A stretch of DNA of 50,076 nt. It comes from Sphingorhabdus sp. (GTDB lineage: Bacteria > Pseudomonadota > Alphaproteobacteria > Sphingomonadales > Sphingomonadaceae). Made by a program: the position numbers and the translations under genes. Every line of letters begins with the position of its first letter. Positions within the stretch are counted from its first letter, which is position 1. The notes under the pieces were generated by a model. The model searched no databases and had not been told where the DNA came from. It saw only the letters and a program-made list of their open reading frames with translations. The stretch lies in the NCBI GenBank assembly GCA_015478735.1, contig JADMKQ010000007.1, forward strand, positions 1 to 50,076. Reading direction: 5' to 3'. Below are positions 11,605-25,699 of the stretch, piece after piece.

Positions 11605-12492
11605 TTACATTCCCAGGCTGGCGAGCATCAGATAGGCGGCGCGTGCAGGCTCGCTAAATGGCTTCGATATGGAGGATTGATTTTGACTGGCGGAAGGGTC
11701 GCCGGTTTTGTCATTCAGATGCGCCTGCGCTATCCGCAGGTAATCGGCAGGTTGAACCATGCGCGGCGCACCAGCGCCCTGACCGGCATGTTGCGGCAAA
11801 ATATTTCCGCCAGATGGCAAGCCATTGCCGCCAACTATATTCACGGCATTGGCGAGCTTGCTTTCAAAACGGTCACGAATGGCCGCAAAACTTCGCGCAG
11901 CACCGCTGCGGTCATAGAATATATTGTGATTGGCGCGGGCTGCTTGCGGAAAGGATGATGCAGCAGATCCGCCGGGGTTGCTGTTCATATTATTGAGGAA
12001 CTTTGCCGCTCCAGAGGCCCCTAGAAAATGCGCCAGGTAGAGATCAACGGACTCCGGCTTGCGGCCGGTTTGCTGTTCCAGATACGCGCCATTGTCGCGG
12101 GCAAATTCACCAGCCATCGCGGCAGACAGCGCAGGGTCATTGCGAAGCCCCAATATGCTGGATTTCAGAGCTTTATCGGCAACATTAAAGTGCCCGTTGG
12201 GATTTCTGGAAATAGCATTTTGCGCCCAGCCAAGGCCGTATTGATCCCCCTTATCCTTGACCAGTCCAAGCCATGTCTGGTCGATAAACTGGTAAAGCCC
12301 GGTTGCCGAGGACGTGCCCGCCTTGGCATCCGCCCGCATCCCGCTTTCCAGCTGTGCCTGCGCGATCAGATATTGAAAATCAACGCCGGTCCGCTGCGCC
12401 GATTGCGCGATAATGGACGGCAGATCGCGGCGCCCGCCGGTATGAACCCGTGCCGGATCAGGACTGGAATTGGGAATGGACAGATTGGACAT
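11605..12492 (-). CDS. Flagellar-locus lytic transglycosylase (SLT domain)
   Basis: A 295-residue protein with an N-terminal soluble lytic transglycosylase domain. The catalytic-Glu region is AQLESGMRADAKAGTSSATGLYQFIDQTWL (residues about 45-75). A low-complexity Gly/Asn/Ser tail follows. It probably opens peptidoglycan for the rod, the role PleA has in Caulobacter and the FlgJ C-terminal domain has in enterics. I start at ATG 12492 (AGGAGA upstream) and not at the ORF-track TTG 12528, since the sigma-54 promoter at 12524-12539 would begin transcription near 12513. No signal peptide is evident, so export through the flagellar apparatus is possible. It heads the flhA-fliA operon. Confidence 0.82.
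   Translation of the reverse strand: MSNLSIPNSSPDPARVHTGGRRDLPSIIAQSAQRTGVDFQYLIAQAQLESGMRADAKAGTSSATGLYQFIDQTWLGLVKDKGDQYGLGWAQNAISRNPNGHFNVADKALKSSILGLRNDPALSAAMAGEFARDNGAYLEQQTGRKPESVDLYLAHFLGASGAAKFLNNMNSNPGGSAASSFPQAARANHNIFYDRSGAARSFAAIRDRFESKLANAVNIVGGNGLPSGGNILPQHAGQGAGAPRMVQPADYLRIAQAHLNDKTGDPSASQNQSSISKPFSEPARAAYLMLASLGM
11794..11830. promoter_or_regulatory. Pair of CGGCAA-N4-TTGCCG-like palindromes inside the transglycosylase gene
   Basis: Site 1 is CGGCAAAATATTTCCG (11794-11809) and site 2 is TGGCAAGCCATTGCCG (11815-11830). Each has one arm base differing from the ideal. They start 21 bases apart, the same offset as the pair upstream of flgB. They lie about 700 bases downstream of the operon promoter and about 200 bases upstream of flhA. 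I found no sigma-54 promoter between them and flhA. Confidence 0.45.
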
Positions 12493-12523
12493 GGTGATAT
12501 CAGAGTCTCCTGTTGAGAGGAGA

Positions 12524-12539
12524 AGCAATAGTCATGCCA
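12524..12539 (-). promoter_or_regulatory. Sigma-54 promoter of the transglycosylase-flhA-fliA operon
   Basis: The minus strand reads TGGCATGACTATTGCT, a near-consensus -24/-12 element with GG-N10-GC. The predicted start near 12513 gives a leader of about 20 bases to ATG 12492, enough to include AGGAGA. Confidence 0.75.
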
Positions 12540-13432: not shown

Positions 13433-13930
13433 TTACTGGACCAGTTCAACTTCGCCGGAACCGGACACGCGGGCCATTAATTCCTTGGATTCACGGCTGG
13501 AACGGACGGGGATATAATCGCCTATCCGTCCGTTTTTCTGGGCCACCACACCATAGCTTATGGAAAAGCTAGGCCGCCGGACGACAAGTGTCAGGGGCTG
13601 GTTTCGTAAAACTACAAACTCGCCAGAGCGGTCTGCACTGGAAGAATGTCCGGTCGGTCCGCGCCGCACCGGAACAAATATCCGCCAGCCCAGATGCGGG
13701 CAGCTCACCATCACGGCGCTGTTATTAGTAGCCGAAAGCTGCACCTCACCGGGACAGCGCTTCAATCGCAATTTCGTGTCGATCGGTGCCAGCGCCCCGC
13801 CCGCATCACCGATATTTGCATTGAGATGCGTCGCAACCTGCCGATCAAGAGCGGTGCTGTCCTCGAAAGGGGAAGCCGCACCTGTTGCAAGAAGGGCGAA
13901 TATCGGAAGAGTAAGGCGTTTATATAACAT
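13433..13930 (-). CDS. flgA: FlgA, P-ring assembly chaperone
   Basis: A periplasmic chaperone that helps FlgI assemble into the P-ring. I start at ATG 13930, 18 codons inside the ORF-track frame. The reasons are that MLYKRLTLPIFALLATGAASP is a clear Sec signal peptide, AGGA lies upstream, and the sigma-54 promoter at 13990-14005 predicts transcription from about 13979. The 165-residue product shows the FlgA/SAF-like C-terminal half: GEFVVLRNQPLTLVVRRPSFSISYGVVAQKNGRIGDYIPVRSSRESKELMARVSGSGEVEL. It is shorter than FlgA of enterics. Confidence 0.88.
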   Translation of the reverse strand: MLYKRLTLPIFALLATGAASPFEDSTALDRQVATHLNANIGDAGGALAPIDTKLRLKRCPGEVQLSATNNSAVMVSCPHLGWRIFVPVRRGPTGHSSSADRSGEFVVLRNQPLTLVVRRPSFSISYGVVAQKNGRIGDYIPVRSSRESKELMARVSGSGEVELVQ

Positions 13931-13989
13931 GTCAGGTTCCTGTGCGTTCTGTCCGGAAAGAATTGCCCGGATAAACTTAGCCAAAACAA

Positions 13990-14024: not shown

Positions 14025-14513
14025 TCATTCACTCGAAGCATCGCTTTTCGCTGGCAGGAAGGTCAGCGTTATATTCAGCTTCTCATCGGCTTTAGTAACC
14101 AGTTTTTCGGGGATTTTGAGGATAATCATCTCCCCGTCCTGCCCTGCCTTTTCAAAGGCATCAGCAATAGCGGCAGAACGCGCCGCTACTTTTTCCCATT
14201 GCCGTAGTCTTTGACCGCCCGGTATTTGATCTACTGCGGGCACATATATGGTCAGCAACTGCTTTTCCCGGATGTTCGGAATTCCGGCAATTTCCTCCCG
14301 CGCATGTTCGCTCAGCATCGCGCTGTTATCATCGAAAAAATCAGTGATCTTATATTCAAACACGGCATGGATGCGCTGCTGGGGCGCGGTTTGTTCTGCC
14401 AGTTTTTTGCGGGCATCGGGACCTGCCATATTCACAAAATGAGCATAGGCAAAGACGCTAAGCAGCATCAATGCCAGGTCCAGAAAGGATAAGGTAGTCC
14501 GCCCCGCGATCAT
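14025..14513 (-). CDS. Divergent MotB/ExbD-like stator protein
   Basis: A 162-residue protein with one N-terminal membrane segment, TLSFLDLALMLLSVFAYAHFV, in which Asp12 sits where MotB and ExbD carry their ion-binding Asp. The C-terminal region (HAVFEYKITDFFDDNSAMLSEHAREEI..LTIYVPAVDQIP..RSAAIADAFEKAG) looks like a shrunken OmpA-type domain, but the peptidoglycan-binding signature is degraded. It follows the MotA-like gene by 3 bases, so the two form a pair. A canonical motA-motB pair also exists at the other end of the locus. Whether it powers the motor, assists it or acts elsewhere is unknown. Confidence 0.65.
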   Translation of the reverse strand: MIAGRTTLSFLDLALMLLSVFAYAHFVNMAGPDARKKLAEQTAPQQRIHAVFEYKITDFFDDNSAMLSEHAREEIAGIPNIREKQLLTIYVPAVDQIPGGQRLRQWEKVAARSAAIADAFEKAGQDGEMIILKIPEKLVTKADEKLNITLTFLPAKSDASSE

Positions 14514-14516
14514 TTA

Positions 14517-15230
14517 TCAATGCGCCGCCCGCAGCGGTTTTGCCGGAGAGAAATGAACCGGGGTCAGGATGACAAGTTCGCGCTTTGCTATCGCGATCAA
14601 ATGCTCTGCAACAGCCGCGCGATAGGCGTTCAATATCTCCGCCCGCGCTTTTAGCCGCATGTGAATGGGGAAAGCGATGATGTGCGAAATGAACATGCCA
14701 TAGAGGCTGGTGAGCAAGGTAAAGCTCATCGCCGGACCCATTTTCAGCGGGTCGATGCCGGTCGCAAATAGCTGGATCAGGCCGATAATCGTACCGATCA
14801 AGCCGATGGCCGGCGCAATTTCAGAAGCCGCATTCCAATAGCTTTCCGCCATGTCCTGCTTCTTTTTGGCTATATGACACTGCATTCGTGCCCATTCCTC
14901 GAAAGTCTTGGCGTCCTTGGCATTTACCAGTTCGCCGATCATGCGGGTGATGAAATGATCTTCGCTATGCAACCGCTCCAGCCCGATAAACCCCTGTTCT
15001 CGCAGCACAAAATCGATACGACGGCACATGAAAGTTGCATTTTCCCCGCTTTCGGAAAACGGCTCCCTTCCGCAACGGGGCAGCGCTGCAAAAGCCAGTG
15101 CGAGAGAGGATTTGCCGCTTTGAACCCACGCCAGGATCAGCACGCAGCCAAGCACTAGTCCGAATATCACAGGATCAAATAGCTGCCCGAACTTGCCGAG
15201 CGTATCACTATTGCCGAACATCATATCCAC
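14517..15230 (-). CDS. MotA/TolQ/ExbB-family proton channel protein (second stator-like pair)
   Basis: A 237-residue inner-membrane protein with hydrophobic segments at about 20-36, 139-156 (APAIGLIGTIIGLIQLFA) and 167-189 (MSFTLLTSLYGMFISHIIAFPI), plus a weak one near 42-52. The last two match the MotA/TolQ channel signature. The start is GTG 15230 with GGAGGG 7 bases upstream. It is smaller than canonical MotA in this window (310 residues) and only distantly similar. It is paired with the MotB-like gene downstream. Location between flgA and flgB suggests a flagellar role. Confidence 0.72.
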   Translation of the reverse strand: MDMMFGNSDTLGKFGQLFDPVIFGLVLGCVLILAWVQSGKSSLALAFAALPRCGREPFSESGENATFMCRRIDFVLREQGFIGLERLHSEDHFITRMIGELVNAKDAKTFEEWARMQCHIAKKKQDMAESYWNAASEIAPAIGLIGTIIGLIQLFATGIDPLKMGPAMSFTLLTSLYGMFISHIIAFPIHMRLKARAEILNAYRAAVAEHLIAIAKRELVILTPVHFSPAKPLRAAH

Positions 15231-15266: not shown

Positions 15267-15304
15267 GCGGCAAGATTCTTCCGCTCACCGGCAAAAACTT
15301 GCCG
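15267..15304. promoter_or_regulatory. Pair of CGGCAA-N4-TTGCCG-type palindromes upstream of flgB (enhancer candidates)
   Basis: Site 1 (15268-15283) is CGGCAAGATTCTTCCG, imperfect. Site 2 (15289-15304) is CGGCAAAAACTTGCCG, a perfect 6-4-6 palindrome. Centres are 21 bases apart, about two helical turns. They lie about 119 and 140 bases upstream of the start predicted from the sigma-54 promoter at 15390, as expected of enhancers. They resemble, from memory, the ftr elements bound by Caulobacter FlbD. Confidence 0.7.
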
Positions 15305-15389: not shown

Positions 15390-15405
15390 TGGCACGTCGT
15401 TTGCG
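15390..15405 (+). promoter_or_regulatory. Sigma-54 promoter of the flgB-motB operon
   Basis: TGGCACGTCGTTTGCG matches the sigma-54 consensus at essentially every conserved base, with GG-N10-GC spacing. The predicted start is near 15416, about 92 bases before the flgB ATG. No other strong promoter was seen until the end of motB. Confidence 0.88.
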
Positions 15406-15507: not shown

Positions 15508-15861
15508 ATGCCGAGTTTGGATCAGATTTTTGCGTTAAACGGCGGAGCGCTACAGTTGCGCTCCCAGCGTTTAAACATGCTGGCTTCTAATATCGCGAAT
15601 GCGTCTACGCCCGGTTACAAGGCGAAGGACCTCGATTTCGATCGCGCGATGCAACAGGCGCAGAGCGGCGGATCGCTGAGCAAAGCAATGAGCGACCACA
15701 CAGGTTTCCGCGTTCCGCTGCAACCCTCGCTCGATGGCAATACTGTCGAGCTGTCCGTCGAACAGACCCTGTTTGCCGAAAACGCCATTCAATATCGGAC
15801 CACCCTCTCCTTTCTTCAGGGCCAGGTGTCCACGATCCAACGCGCCTTGAAAGGGGAATAG
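15508..15861 (+). CDS. flgB: FlgB, proximal rod protein
   Basis: A 117-residue rod subunit, slightly short for the family (about 130). The rod/hook signature QRLNMLASNIANASTPGYKAKDLDF is at residues about 22-46, and the C-terminal helix (NAIQYRTTLSFLQGQVSTIQRALKGE) completes the D0 coiled coil. It is exported and assembled just above FliE. It is the first gene of the long rightward operon driven by the sigma-54 promoter at 15390. flgC begins 2 bases after its stop. Confidence 0.95.
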   Translation: MPSLDQIFALNGGALQLRSQRLNMLASNIANASTPGYKAKDLDFDRAMQQAQSGGSLSKAMSDHTGFRVPLQPSLDGNTVELSVEQTLFAENAIQYRTTLSFLQGQVSTIQRALKGE

Positions 15862-23897: not shown

Positions 23898-24830
23898 ATG
23901 ATGACCATTTCCTCGCTGGCCGAGGATCTGTCAGATGGAAACGGGCCTGTAAATTGGAATGAGTATATGTTCGCTGGAATTGGTATTGTTGTTCTGCTGG
24001 TCATGGTTTTCGGGATTTTCGCGCTATCTGGCGGTGATCTCGGCGTCGTTCTTCATGCCCTTCCTATCGAGATGGGAATTATCGGCGGCGCGGCTGTCGG
24101 CGCGCTGATTATCGGTAATAACGGCGCGCAGCTAAAAGCTCTGCTCGGAGCAGTGGGCAAGGTTTTCAAAGGCCCGACGTACCACAAACAGGACTTCATG
24201 GACTGCATCTTGCTGGTGTCCCAGTTGAACAAGATCCTGAAAAGCGACGGTCCGGTTGCGCTGGAACCGCATATCGAAGATCCTAAAGCATCCCCGATTT
24301 TCAGTGCTTATCCCAATTTGCTGAAAGACGAAGCCCTGATCCACCTGATCGCTGACAGTTTGCGGCTTGTTGTCGTTTCATCGGGCACATTGGACCCCTA
24401 TGCGGTCGAAGATGTCATGGACCAGTCTATCAAGACCCATCATCATGAAGCCATTGCCCCTGCCAACAACCTTCAAACCCTGGCCGATGCGTTGCCTGCT
24501 CTGGGCATCGTTGCCGCAGTTTTGGGCGTCGTCAAAACTATGGGTGCTATTGATCAGCCGCCTGTAATCCTGGGCGCCATGATTGGCTCTGCACTGGTCG
24601 GGACATTCCTGGGCGTATTATTAGCATATGGCTTTGTCGGCCCGATGGCCGGCCGCGCACGTGCTTTGATCGAAAGCGATGCGACCATTTATCATGTCGC
24701 AAAACAACTCATCATCGCCAATCTTCATGGCCACCCGCAACCGCTGATAATCGAAGCTGCCCGGACCAGTGTGCCGCATGCGAACCAGCCAAGTTTCTCC
24801 GATGTATTTGACGCGGTAAGAGGACGCTGA
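23898..24830 (+). CDS. motA: MotA, flagellar stator channel
   Basis: A 310-residue inner-membrane stator subunit. Hydrophobic segments lie at about 25-45, 57-75, 202-222 and 227-250. The conserved MotA stretch LADALPALGIVAAVLGVVKTMG and the cytoplasmic loop with charged residues are present. It forms the torque-generating ion channel with MotB, encoded 2 bases downstream. It follows flgL by 54 bases, so the stator is made with the hook and rod genes under sigma-54 control, unless an undetected promoter lies in that gap. Confidence 0.95.
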   Translation: MMTISSLAEDLSDGNGPVNWNEYMFAGIGIVVLLVMVFGIFALSGGDLGVVLHALPIEMGIIGGAAVGALIIGNNGAQLKALLGAVGKVFKGPTYHKQDFMDCILLVSQLNKILKSDGPVALEPHIEDPKASPIFSAYPNLLKDEALIHLIADSLRLVVVSSGTLDPYAVEDVMDQSIKTHHHEAIAPANNLQTLADALPALGIVAAVLGVVKTMGAIDQPPVILGAMIGSALVGTFLGVLLAYGFVGPMAGRARALIESDATIYHVAKQLIIANLHGHPQPLIIEAARTSVPHANQPSFSDVFDAVRGR

Positions 24831-24832
24831 CC

Positions 24833-25699
24833 ATGGCCAAGAAAAAAGCGCCGGAACCGGTTCGGCCGATCATCGTAAGGCGGATCATTGCCAATAGCCA
24901 TGAAACCCATCACGGCGGGGCATGGAAGGTCGCCTATGCCGACTTTGTTACCGCGATGATGGCGTTTTTCCTGCTGATGTGGCTACTTGGCGCGACGGAC
25001 GAGAAACAGCGCAAGGGCATAGCCGACTATTTCGCGCCCACTATCGCCCAGGTGAAGCGTGACAGCGCTGGCGGCACAAAAATGTTTGGCGGTTCATCAG
25101 TCACCGATCCGGACAAATATCCTCACAAGGCAACCCAGATCGGGAATCAGGCCGTAGCCATCACGCCGAAGAATAATCCGCTGCGAGAGAAAAAGAAAAA
25201 TATCGACCGCCGCCGCGATTCCATTCCCAAGTCATTGACCGCCGAGGAATTTGAAAAGCGCGTCAAGCAAGAGCTGATGAAGAATCCCCAAACGGCAAAA
25301 TTGCTGTCCAATGTCCGCTTTACCGACACCAAGGAAGGTTTGCGGATCGACATTATCGACGAAGCGGATTTCAGCATGTTTGCGCTTGCGACCAACAATC
25401 TTCAATCCCGCGCAATCGAGTTGATCGCTCAGGTCGCCAAAATCATTGACACGGTGGATAATGAACTGATTATCCGGGGCCATACGGACAGCCTGCCCTA
25501 TGCCAGCGGGCAGAATATGAATAACTGGCTGCTATCCTCCGCCCGCGCCGAAGCAACAAGGCAAGAGCTTGTCAGGCAAGGTGTCGGACTGAACCGCATG
25601 GCGAGGATCGAAGGCGTCGCGGATACAGAGCCATATAACCCGGCCGAACCGATGGATGACCGGAACAGGCGTATCTCGATCACGATGAAGACCGAGTAG
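24833..25699 (+). CDS. motB: MotB, flagellar stator anchor
   Basis: A 288-residue stator subunit with a short cytoplasmic N-terminus, one membrane segment containing the ion-binding Asp (GAWKVAYADFVTAMMAFFLLMWLLG), a plug/linker rich in Lys, and a C-terminal OmpA-like peptidoglycan-binding domain (IRGHTDSLPY...NWLLSSARAEATRQELVRQGV...ADTEPYNP..DDRNRRISITMK). It anchors MotA to the wall. It is the last gene of the flgB operon; no clear terminator hairpin follows within 100 bases. Confidence 0.96.
   Translation: MAKKKAPEPVRPIIVRRIIANSHETHHGGAWKVAYADFVTAMMAFFLLMWLLGATDEKQRKGIADYFAPTIAQVKRDSAGGTKMFGGSSVTDPDKYPHKATQIGNQAVAITPKNNPLREKKKNIDRRRDSIPKSLTAEEFEKRVKQELMKNPQTAKLLSNVRFTDTKEGLRIDIIDEADFSMFALATNNLQSRAIELIAQVAKIIDTVDNELIIRGHTDSLPYASGQNMNNWLLSSARAEATRQELVRQGVGLNRMARIEGVADTEPYNPAEPMDDRNRRISITMKTE

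Follow-up and report, generated by a model that had tools for sequence, protein, structure and literature searches.

A compact gene pair of flagellar-stator descent between flgB and flgA in Sphingomonadaceae, probably an accessory stator

The window, i.e. the whole stretch of DNA analysed here, comprises 50,076 nucleotides of the Sphingorhabdus sp. contig JADMKQ010000007.1 and carries a flagellar locus. Two genes on its minus strand, named here XA and XB, are placed between flgA and flgB (Table 1). Their lengths and their position, apart from the canonical motAB, were as given in the original prediction, which had been made from the sequence alone. The canonical motAB forms the end of the flg run. 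Its MotA was assigned to TIGR03818 (330.8 bits, cut-off 303.8), and its MotB matched both MotB_plug and OmpA.

Table 1 Features of the XA-XB locus and of the canonical stator genes in the window.
Feature	Position	Strand	Description
XA	14517-15230	-	237-aa ring subunit, PomA/MotA-like; lacks the first TM helix and has three
XB	14025-14513	-	short MotB/PomB-like axis subunit; 162 aa
XB parts			TM helix carrying Asp12, then a plug-like helix (32-42) and a compact OmpA-like domain (45-156)
flgA	13433-13984	-	Pfam ChapFlgA; directly downstream of XB; site-defining neighbour
flgB	15508-15861	+	divergent from XA; site-defining neighbour
canonical motA-motB	23898-25699	+	main stator of the same locus; for comparison, not part of the pair
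sigma-54 promoter	15390-15404	+	TGGCAC-N5-TTGC, exact; reads toward flgB; spacer shared with XA
palindrome	15289-15304		CGGCAA-N4-TTGCCG; probably the enhancer at which the flagellar sigma-54 activator binds

XA matched the Pfam family MotA_ExbB (60.3 bits, cut-off 22.9), and the same search gave no match to MotA_N. Its alignment starts at about residue 23 of PomA, indicating that TM1 of MotA/PomA is absent and that three TM helices remain. The open frame has only 255 codons between stops and leaves no space for a TM1 missed upstream of the gene. Against the PDB, the XA profile hit PomA (E 7.7e-47, 162.9 bits, aligned to PomA residues 23-231), followed by other MotA proteins, and reached only 20 bits with the TolQ structure. 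XA stayed below the cut-offs of the equivalog families for PomA (NF006527, 93.2 bits, cut-off 341), MotA1 (TIGR03818, 20.9 bits, cut-off 303.8) and TolQ (TIGR02796, 14.5 bits, cut-off 221), and its neighbours were flagellar genes, not tol or exb. Clear placement among TolQ/TolR or ExbB/ExbD with transport neighbours, the finding that the original prediction named as evidence against itself, was thus not obtained at any locus.

The AlphaFold (AF2) model of XA had a pLDDT of 89.5. PomA was its best fold match (Z 17.9 over 209 residues), compared with Z values of ~12 for ExbB and ~11 for TolQ. Overall the model contains two long helices. Four short cytoplasmic helices (residues 40-48, 61-79, 82-86 and 92-102) lie between the equivalent of TM2 and the long helix 107-157, which is predicted to be continuous, i.e. 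TM3 is unbroken.

In PomA, P151, G154-G161, T158 and T186 have roles in ion binding and gating, and R88, K89, E96 and D114 are the charges that contact FliG (PMC10374538). Among the 55 XAs aligned, the equivalents of P151, T158 and G189 were invariant, those of G154 and G157 were found in 54, and the T186 position held Thr or Ser in all 55. In the window these ion-path residues include P140 and T147, both (nearly) invariant in the family. The FliG-facing positions varied more: Arg or Lys occupied the R88 position in 16/55 and the K89 position in 17/55, with an acid in 52/55 at E96 and 24/55 at D114. A basic residue somewhere in the equivalents of 88-90 was present in 52/55. The window XA has kept the R88 and E96 equivalents, with Glu in place of K89 and Asn in place of D114. 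In canonical MotA from the same genomes, R/K90 and E98 were kept in 20/20. From this pattern, the ion engine is under strong constraint, and the rotor face of XA is looser but not gone. The PomA-type Thr residues (T147, T175) are only suggestive of Na+ specificity, because TolQ and ExbB, which use protons, carry Thr at the same position.

XB alone had no match in Pfam or NCBIfam, so that its nature had to be shown from its relatives. Among 29 family members, 14 matched MotB_plug and 17 matched OmpA. In the PDB, the XB profile hit PomB (E 2.6e-11), and the alignment took in the TM segment as well as the OmpA part. The intramembrane Asp that had been noticed in the window sequence proved to be real: Asp12 is invariant in the 29 XB sequences, which are only 12-29% identical to that of the window, and the sole other invariant columns are the start Met and Leu13.

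The AlphaFold model of XB (pLDDT 80) showed a TM helix (5-29), a plug-like helix (32-42) and an OmpA-like fold (45-156). The latter matched the OmpA-like domains of YiaD, MotB and OmpA at Z ~12 over 112 residues. It is shortened and has no GHTD motif, and the beta-alpha-beta-alpha-beta-beta fold is predicted to be kept. The helix-2 Arg (R112) was invariant in the alignment of 30 relatives, in which the Asp of GHTD could be placed only roughly. The equivalent Arg (R286) of Acinetobacter baumannii OmpA binds peptidoglycan. In one sister clade (clade 3; L068-L075, L086 and L087) the OmpA part was no longer recognizable. The original prediction of a degraded OmpA domain that may not anchor in the usual way therefore needs to be narrowed. 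Shortening and loss of GHTD were found, and clade 3 is truly degenerate; most clades retain the fold as well as the helix-2 Arg, and the domain of the window XB is, according to the model, compact and not lost. The missing linker is the clearer departure from MotB/PomB: from the pore Asp to the OmpA core there are ~48 residues in XB (family median 47), 143 in the window MotB and 183 in Vibrio-type PomB.

By profile and fold, the closest systems were PomA/PomB, the Na+ stator of Vibrio, and MotC/MotD, the second stator beside MotAB in Pseudomonas (PMC11633141). XA shares with PomA the largely kept equivalents of the pore Pro, Thr158, Thr185/186 and GxxGxxxG, together with a TGI4-type head, and it occurs beside MotAB as MotCD does in Pseudomonas. 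The pair differs from PomAB/MotCD in that XA has no TM1, its FliG-contact charges drift and it scores far below the equivalog cut-offs, whereas XB has 162 instead of ~250-330 aa, almost no linker and a compact OmpA part. With the canonical MotAB of the window it has in common the A-then-B operon logic, the flagellar locus and the pore Asp in B. However, the window MotA is of the E. coli type and has MotA_N, and the window MotB has the long span before a full peptidoglycan-binding domain. TolQ/TolR and ExbB/ExbD resemble the pair in their three-TM A subunit, short B subunit and overall proportions, but XA-XB is nearer to flagellar stators in sequence and fold, has kept the torque head, carries an OmpA-type periplasmic domain in XB and stands in a flagellar context. 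ZorA/ZorB of the Zorya anti-phage system is likewise a repurposed MotAB-derived ion channel. Unlike ZorA, XA has no long cytoplasmic tail, and there were no Zorya neighbours. A PADLOC search gave no XA match and, as the only XB match, a weak and unconvincing one (16.5 bits) to the OmpA part of a single relative.

A tree built without the long TolQ/ExbB branches split XA from PomA and from polar PomA-like proteins (support 97/98). When two very long TolQ/ExbB branches rooted the tree, XA became paraphyletic, but a single XA clade was not rejected (AU p 0.086); a position of XA as sister to the whole set of flagellar stators, or ancestral to them, was set aside. Flagellar ion transporters have been defined by a torque-generating interface of at least four helices, a four-TM A subunit, an unbroken TM3, a plug with a long linker and an OmpA peptidoglycan-binding domain (PMC12505986). 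XA is predicted to have the interface of at least four helices and the unbroken TM3, and it does not have the four-helix (square) transmembrane domain. XB has the ion-binding Asp of MotB/PomB in its single TM helix and, in the window, the OmpA-homologous domain by fold; its linker is short behind the predicted plug-like helix. Because the four-TM A subunit and the long linker are missing, we did not file the pair as PomAB, MotAB or a flagellar ion transporter. Profiles and predicted fold place the ancestry of XA-XB among flagellar stators, in the PomA/PomB (MotC/MotD) branch and not in TolQR/ExbBD; the pair has undergone two reductions, one at TM1 in the A subunit and one in the linker of the B subunit. 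The original reading as a second MotA/MotB-like stator pair is thereby supported in descent and in flagellar context. Its remark that no named system has this shape agrees with our search of the open PMC literature, which largely does not cover subscription papers: no published description of such a pair in sphingomonads was found.

XA relatives were searched in 246 genomes of the order, and the family was counted on 219 Sphingomonadaceae genomes. Full-length relatives (20-36% identity in the 246-genome search) were found within the window's own family, where the profile scored 177-267 bits for XA in ~100 of the 219 genomes. Another two hits, with 120-139 bits, resemble ordinary PomA-like proteins; for one of them (L188) this was confirmed. 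Across 289 genomes of the alphaproteobacterial class, nothing outside Sphingomonadaceae exceeded 172 bits, and the hits below this value had frames long enough for four-TM PomA-like proteins. FlgI was present in 149/219 family genomes and in every genome with a true XA (Fisher p 5e-25, the genomes not being independent). The survey of co-occurrence with flgA and flgB that the original prediction had proposed gave a uniform result: in 62/62 other loci (29 from the genome search; 33 named, belonging to Sphingobium, Sphingomonas and MAGs) the pair was located between divergent flgB and flgA. XB followed XA, usually with a 4-base ATGA start/stop overlap. Occurrence in ~100 genomes, at the same site and with the usual overlap, is more than chance. 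The pair is a two-gene module fixed beside flgA, with its ion-path residues kept, and it occurs only with flagella. Other Sphingomonadales families had a 253-aa PomA-like gene in a different flagellar cluster, between fliG/fliH and flrC (L076-L084); no adjacent PomB gene was seen at the two loci inspected (L076 and L079).

Canonical motB co-occurred in all XA genomes except one. In the exception (G263/L191), the XA of which might be taken for an only stator, the flagellar locus is truncated beside transposase-like sequence, and XA persists without MotB_plug because flgKL-motAB was lost from the damaged locus. A tree built from five flagellar proteins was used to read gain and loss. Several clades have the pair; a basal group and one nested group (L173, L174, L176, L179 and L190) do not. 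In the nested group no gene separates the divergent flgA and flgB, and motAB is kept. This distribution makes the pair an old one in the family that was lost on one or more occasions, and a flagellar locus can be kept without it. Its absence from nested relatives with the same flagellar locus shows that it is accessory. At L180:8342-9127, one genome has a decayed XA that lacks the pore Thr and is not accompanied by a recognizable XB. In another genome without the pair, the flgB-flgA spacer holds LPP20-type and FlgT_N genes (L183:9279-10738). Proteins of both types are parts of the H/T ring in other bacteria. FlgT is no general replacement of the pair, since FlgT_N was found in only 4/219 family genomes, none of them with the pair.

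The sigma-54 promoter toward flgB was detected in 27/29 XA loci (0.78 expected from shuffles), and the ftr-like palindrome CGGCAA-N4-TTGCCG in 23/29 XA-flgB spacers (0.02 expected). Within a single Sphingomonas clade, six loci also had sigma-54 sites facing XA. A sigma-28-like site preceded XA in 8/10 clade-3 loci, and the same pattern was found before motA in 8/22 and before fliC in the window. Since the pattern had been derived from the clade-3 loci themselves, it is the motA hits that give independent support. The conserved promoters and putative enhancer suggest that the pair is wired into flagellar gene control and, in clade 3, into the late, motor-gene class.

From sequence and models, the pair probably works like a stator. 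We propose that XA-XB is a compact accessory ion-driven stator of the Sphingomonadaceae flagellum, added to the MotAB motor, and give this reading a probability of roughly 0.58. By homology, the unit would consist of two XB enclosed by five XA in the inner membrane, and ions passing the Asp of XB would drive rotation of the XA ring around XB. The four-helix cytoplasmic head of the ring may work beside the rotor, and XA-XB could add or tune torque next to MotAB units, perhaps at certain loads or in certain ionic conditions. With the linker almost absent, the OmpA-like domain of XB would sit close to the membrane, so that anchoring is probably not via a long linker of the MotB type; the unit would be held by another periplasmic part of the motor or by a stretched XB that reaches peptidoglycan, which is possible. 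Several observations argue against this reading. The equivalent of PomA R88 is Arg/Lys in only 16/55 and that of D114 acidic in 24/55, whereas R/K90 and E98 are kept in 20/20 MotA proteins of the same genomes; both TM1 and the linker of the B subunit, which are regarded as marks of flagellar stators, are absent; clade 3 has an unrecognizable OmpA part; and nested relatives without the pair keep the flagellar locus with motAB.

Between the auxiliary stator, stator regulator and energiser that had been offered side by side, the sequence evidence leans to the auxiliary stator. Another reading is that the pair is a rotary ion motor of flagellar-stator origin that lost TM1 and the linker to the cell wall and was turned to a task other than driving FliG, e.g., powering assembly in the periplasm or acting on the MotAB motor as a clutch; this is unlikely, though it deserves to be kept in mind. 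One specific form of this, an energiser of another flagellar or envelope step, would be a TolQR-like motor made from stator parts, with XB working near the P-ring (flgA/flgI) or the cell wall. The compact TolQR-like proportions (three-TM A, 162-aa B), the position next to flgA, the sigma-54/enhancer spacer shared with the early gene flgB and a conserved pore alongside non-conserved PomA-type rotor-face charges are in its favour. Yet the four-helix torque head and the unbroken TM3 are kept, unlike in TolQ/ExbB, the closest relatives without the pair retain the P-ring gene set, and the clade-3 promoter is of the late sigma-28-like type, which makes such an energiser rather improbable. We are slightly more doubtful of a regulator, in which XA-XB units would take up stator positions, or mix with MotA/MotB, and give less than full torque, serving as a brake, a clutch or a means to control occupancy. 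Eroded rotor-face charges on a retained fold, and canonical motB beside the pair in all XA genomes but one, would fit this role; however, the invariant ion path argues for active ion use, and mixed rings are unlikely between a PomA-type XA and an E. coli-type main MotA.

Two further explanations have little in their favour. An ExbBD/TolQR transporter energiser that merely happens to be located in the flagellar locus would agree with the three-TM A, the short B and the moderate fold similarity (Z ~12), but XA scores 163 bits with PomA and 20 bits with TolQ, stays far below the TolQ cut-off (14.5 vs 221), has flagellar neighbours at every locus and shares its genome with other MotA_ExbB genes (e.g., one of 128.4 bits on another contig); we consider it highly improbable. 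Still harder to credit is a functionless, decaying duplicate. XB changes very fast, L180 has a degenerate XA without recognizable XB, and some lineages have lost the pair, but the intact frames, the ATGA overlap, pore residues that are invariant at 12-36% identity and retention in ~100 genomes speak against decay.

The accessory stator proposed here bears on a stator classification that treats the four-TM A subunit, the long B linker and the torque head as travelling together (PMC12505986). With head and pore kept and TM1 and linker dropped throughout much of one family, the pair is a natural test of which stator parts are needed, and of whether a stator can be converted, in place, to another use. 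The pair is present in available Sphingobium and Sphingomonas strains, and close relatives naturally lack it.

The genome of the window (2.67 Mb, 243 contigs) gave five MotA_ExbB matches: XA, the window MotA, two TolQ/ExbB-like proteins on other contigs and one MotA on a small contig. A second flgK-flgL-motA-motB run was found on contig C18 (L088, 7544 bases), with a MotA 75% identical to that of the window; it belongs either to a second flagellar system or to a contaminating strain in the assembly. At positions 11605-12528 of the window, between flhA and flgN, there is a transglycosylase (SLT) gene, found in the same place in most loci, which is perhaps the muramidase part of a split FlgJ.
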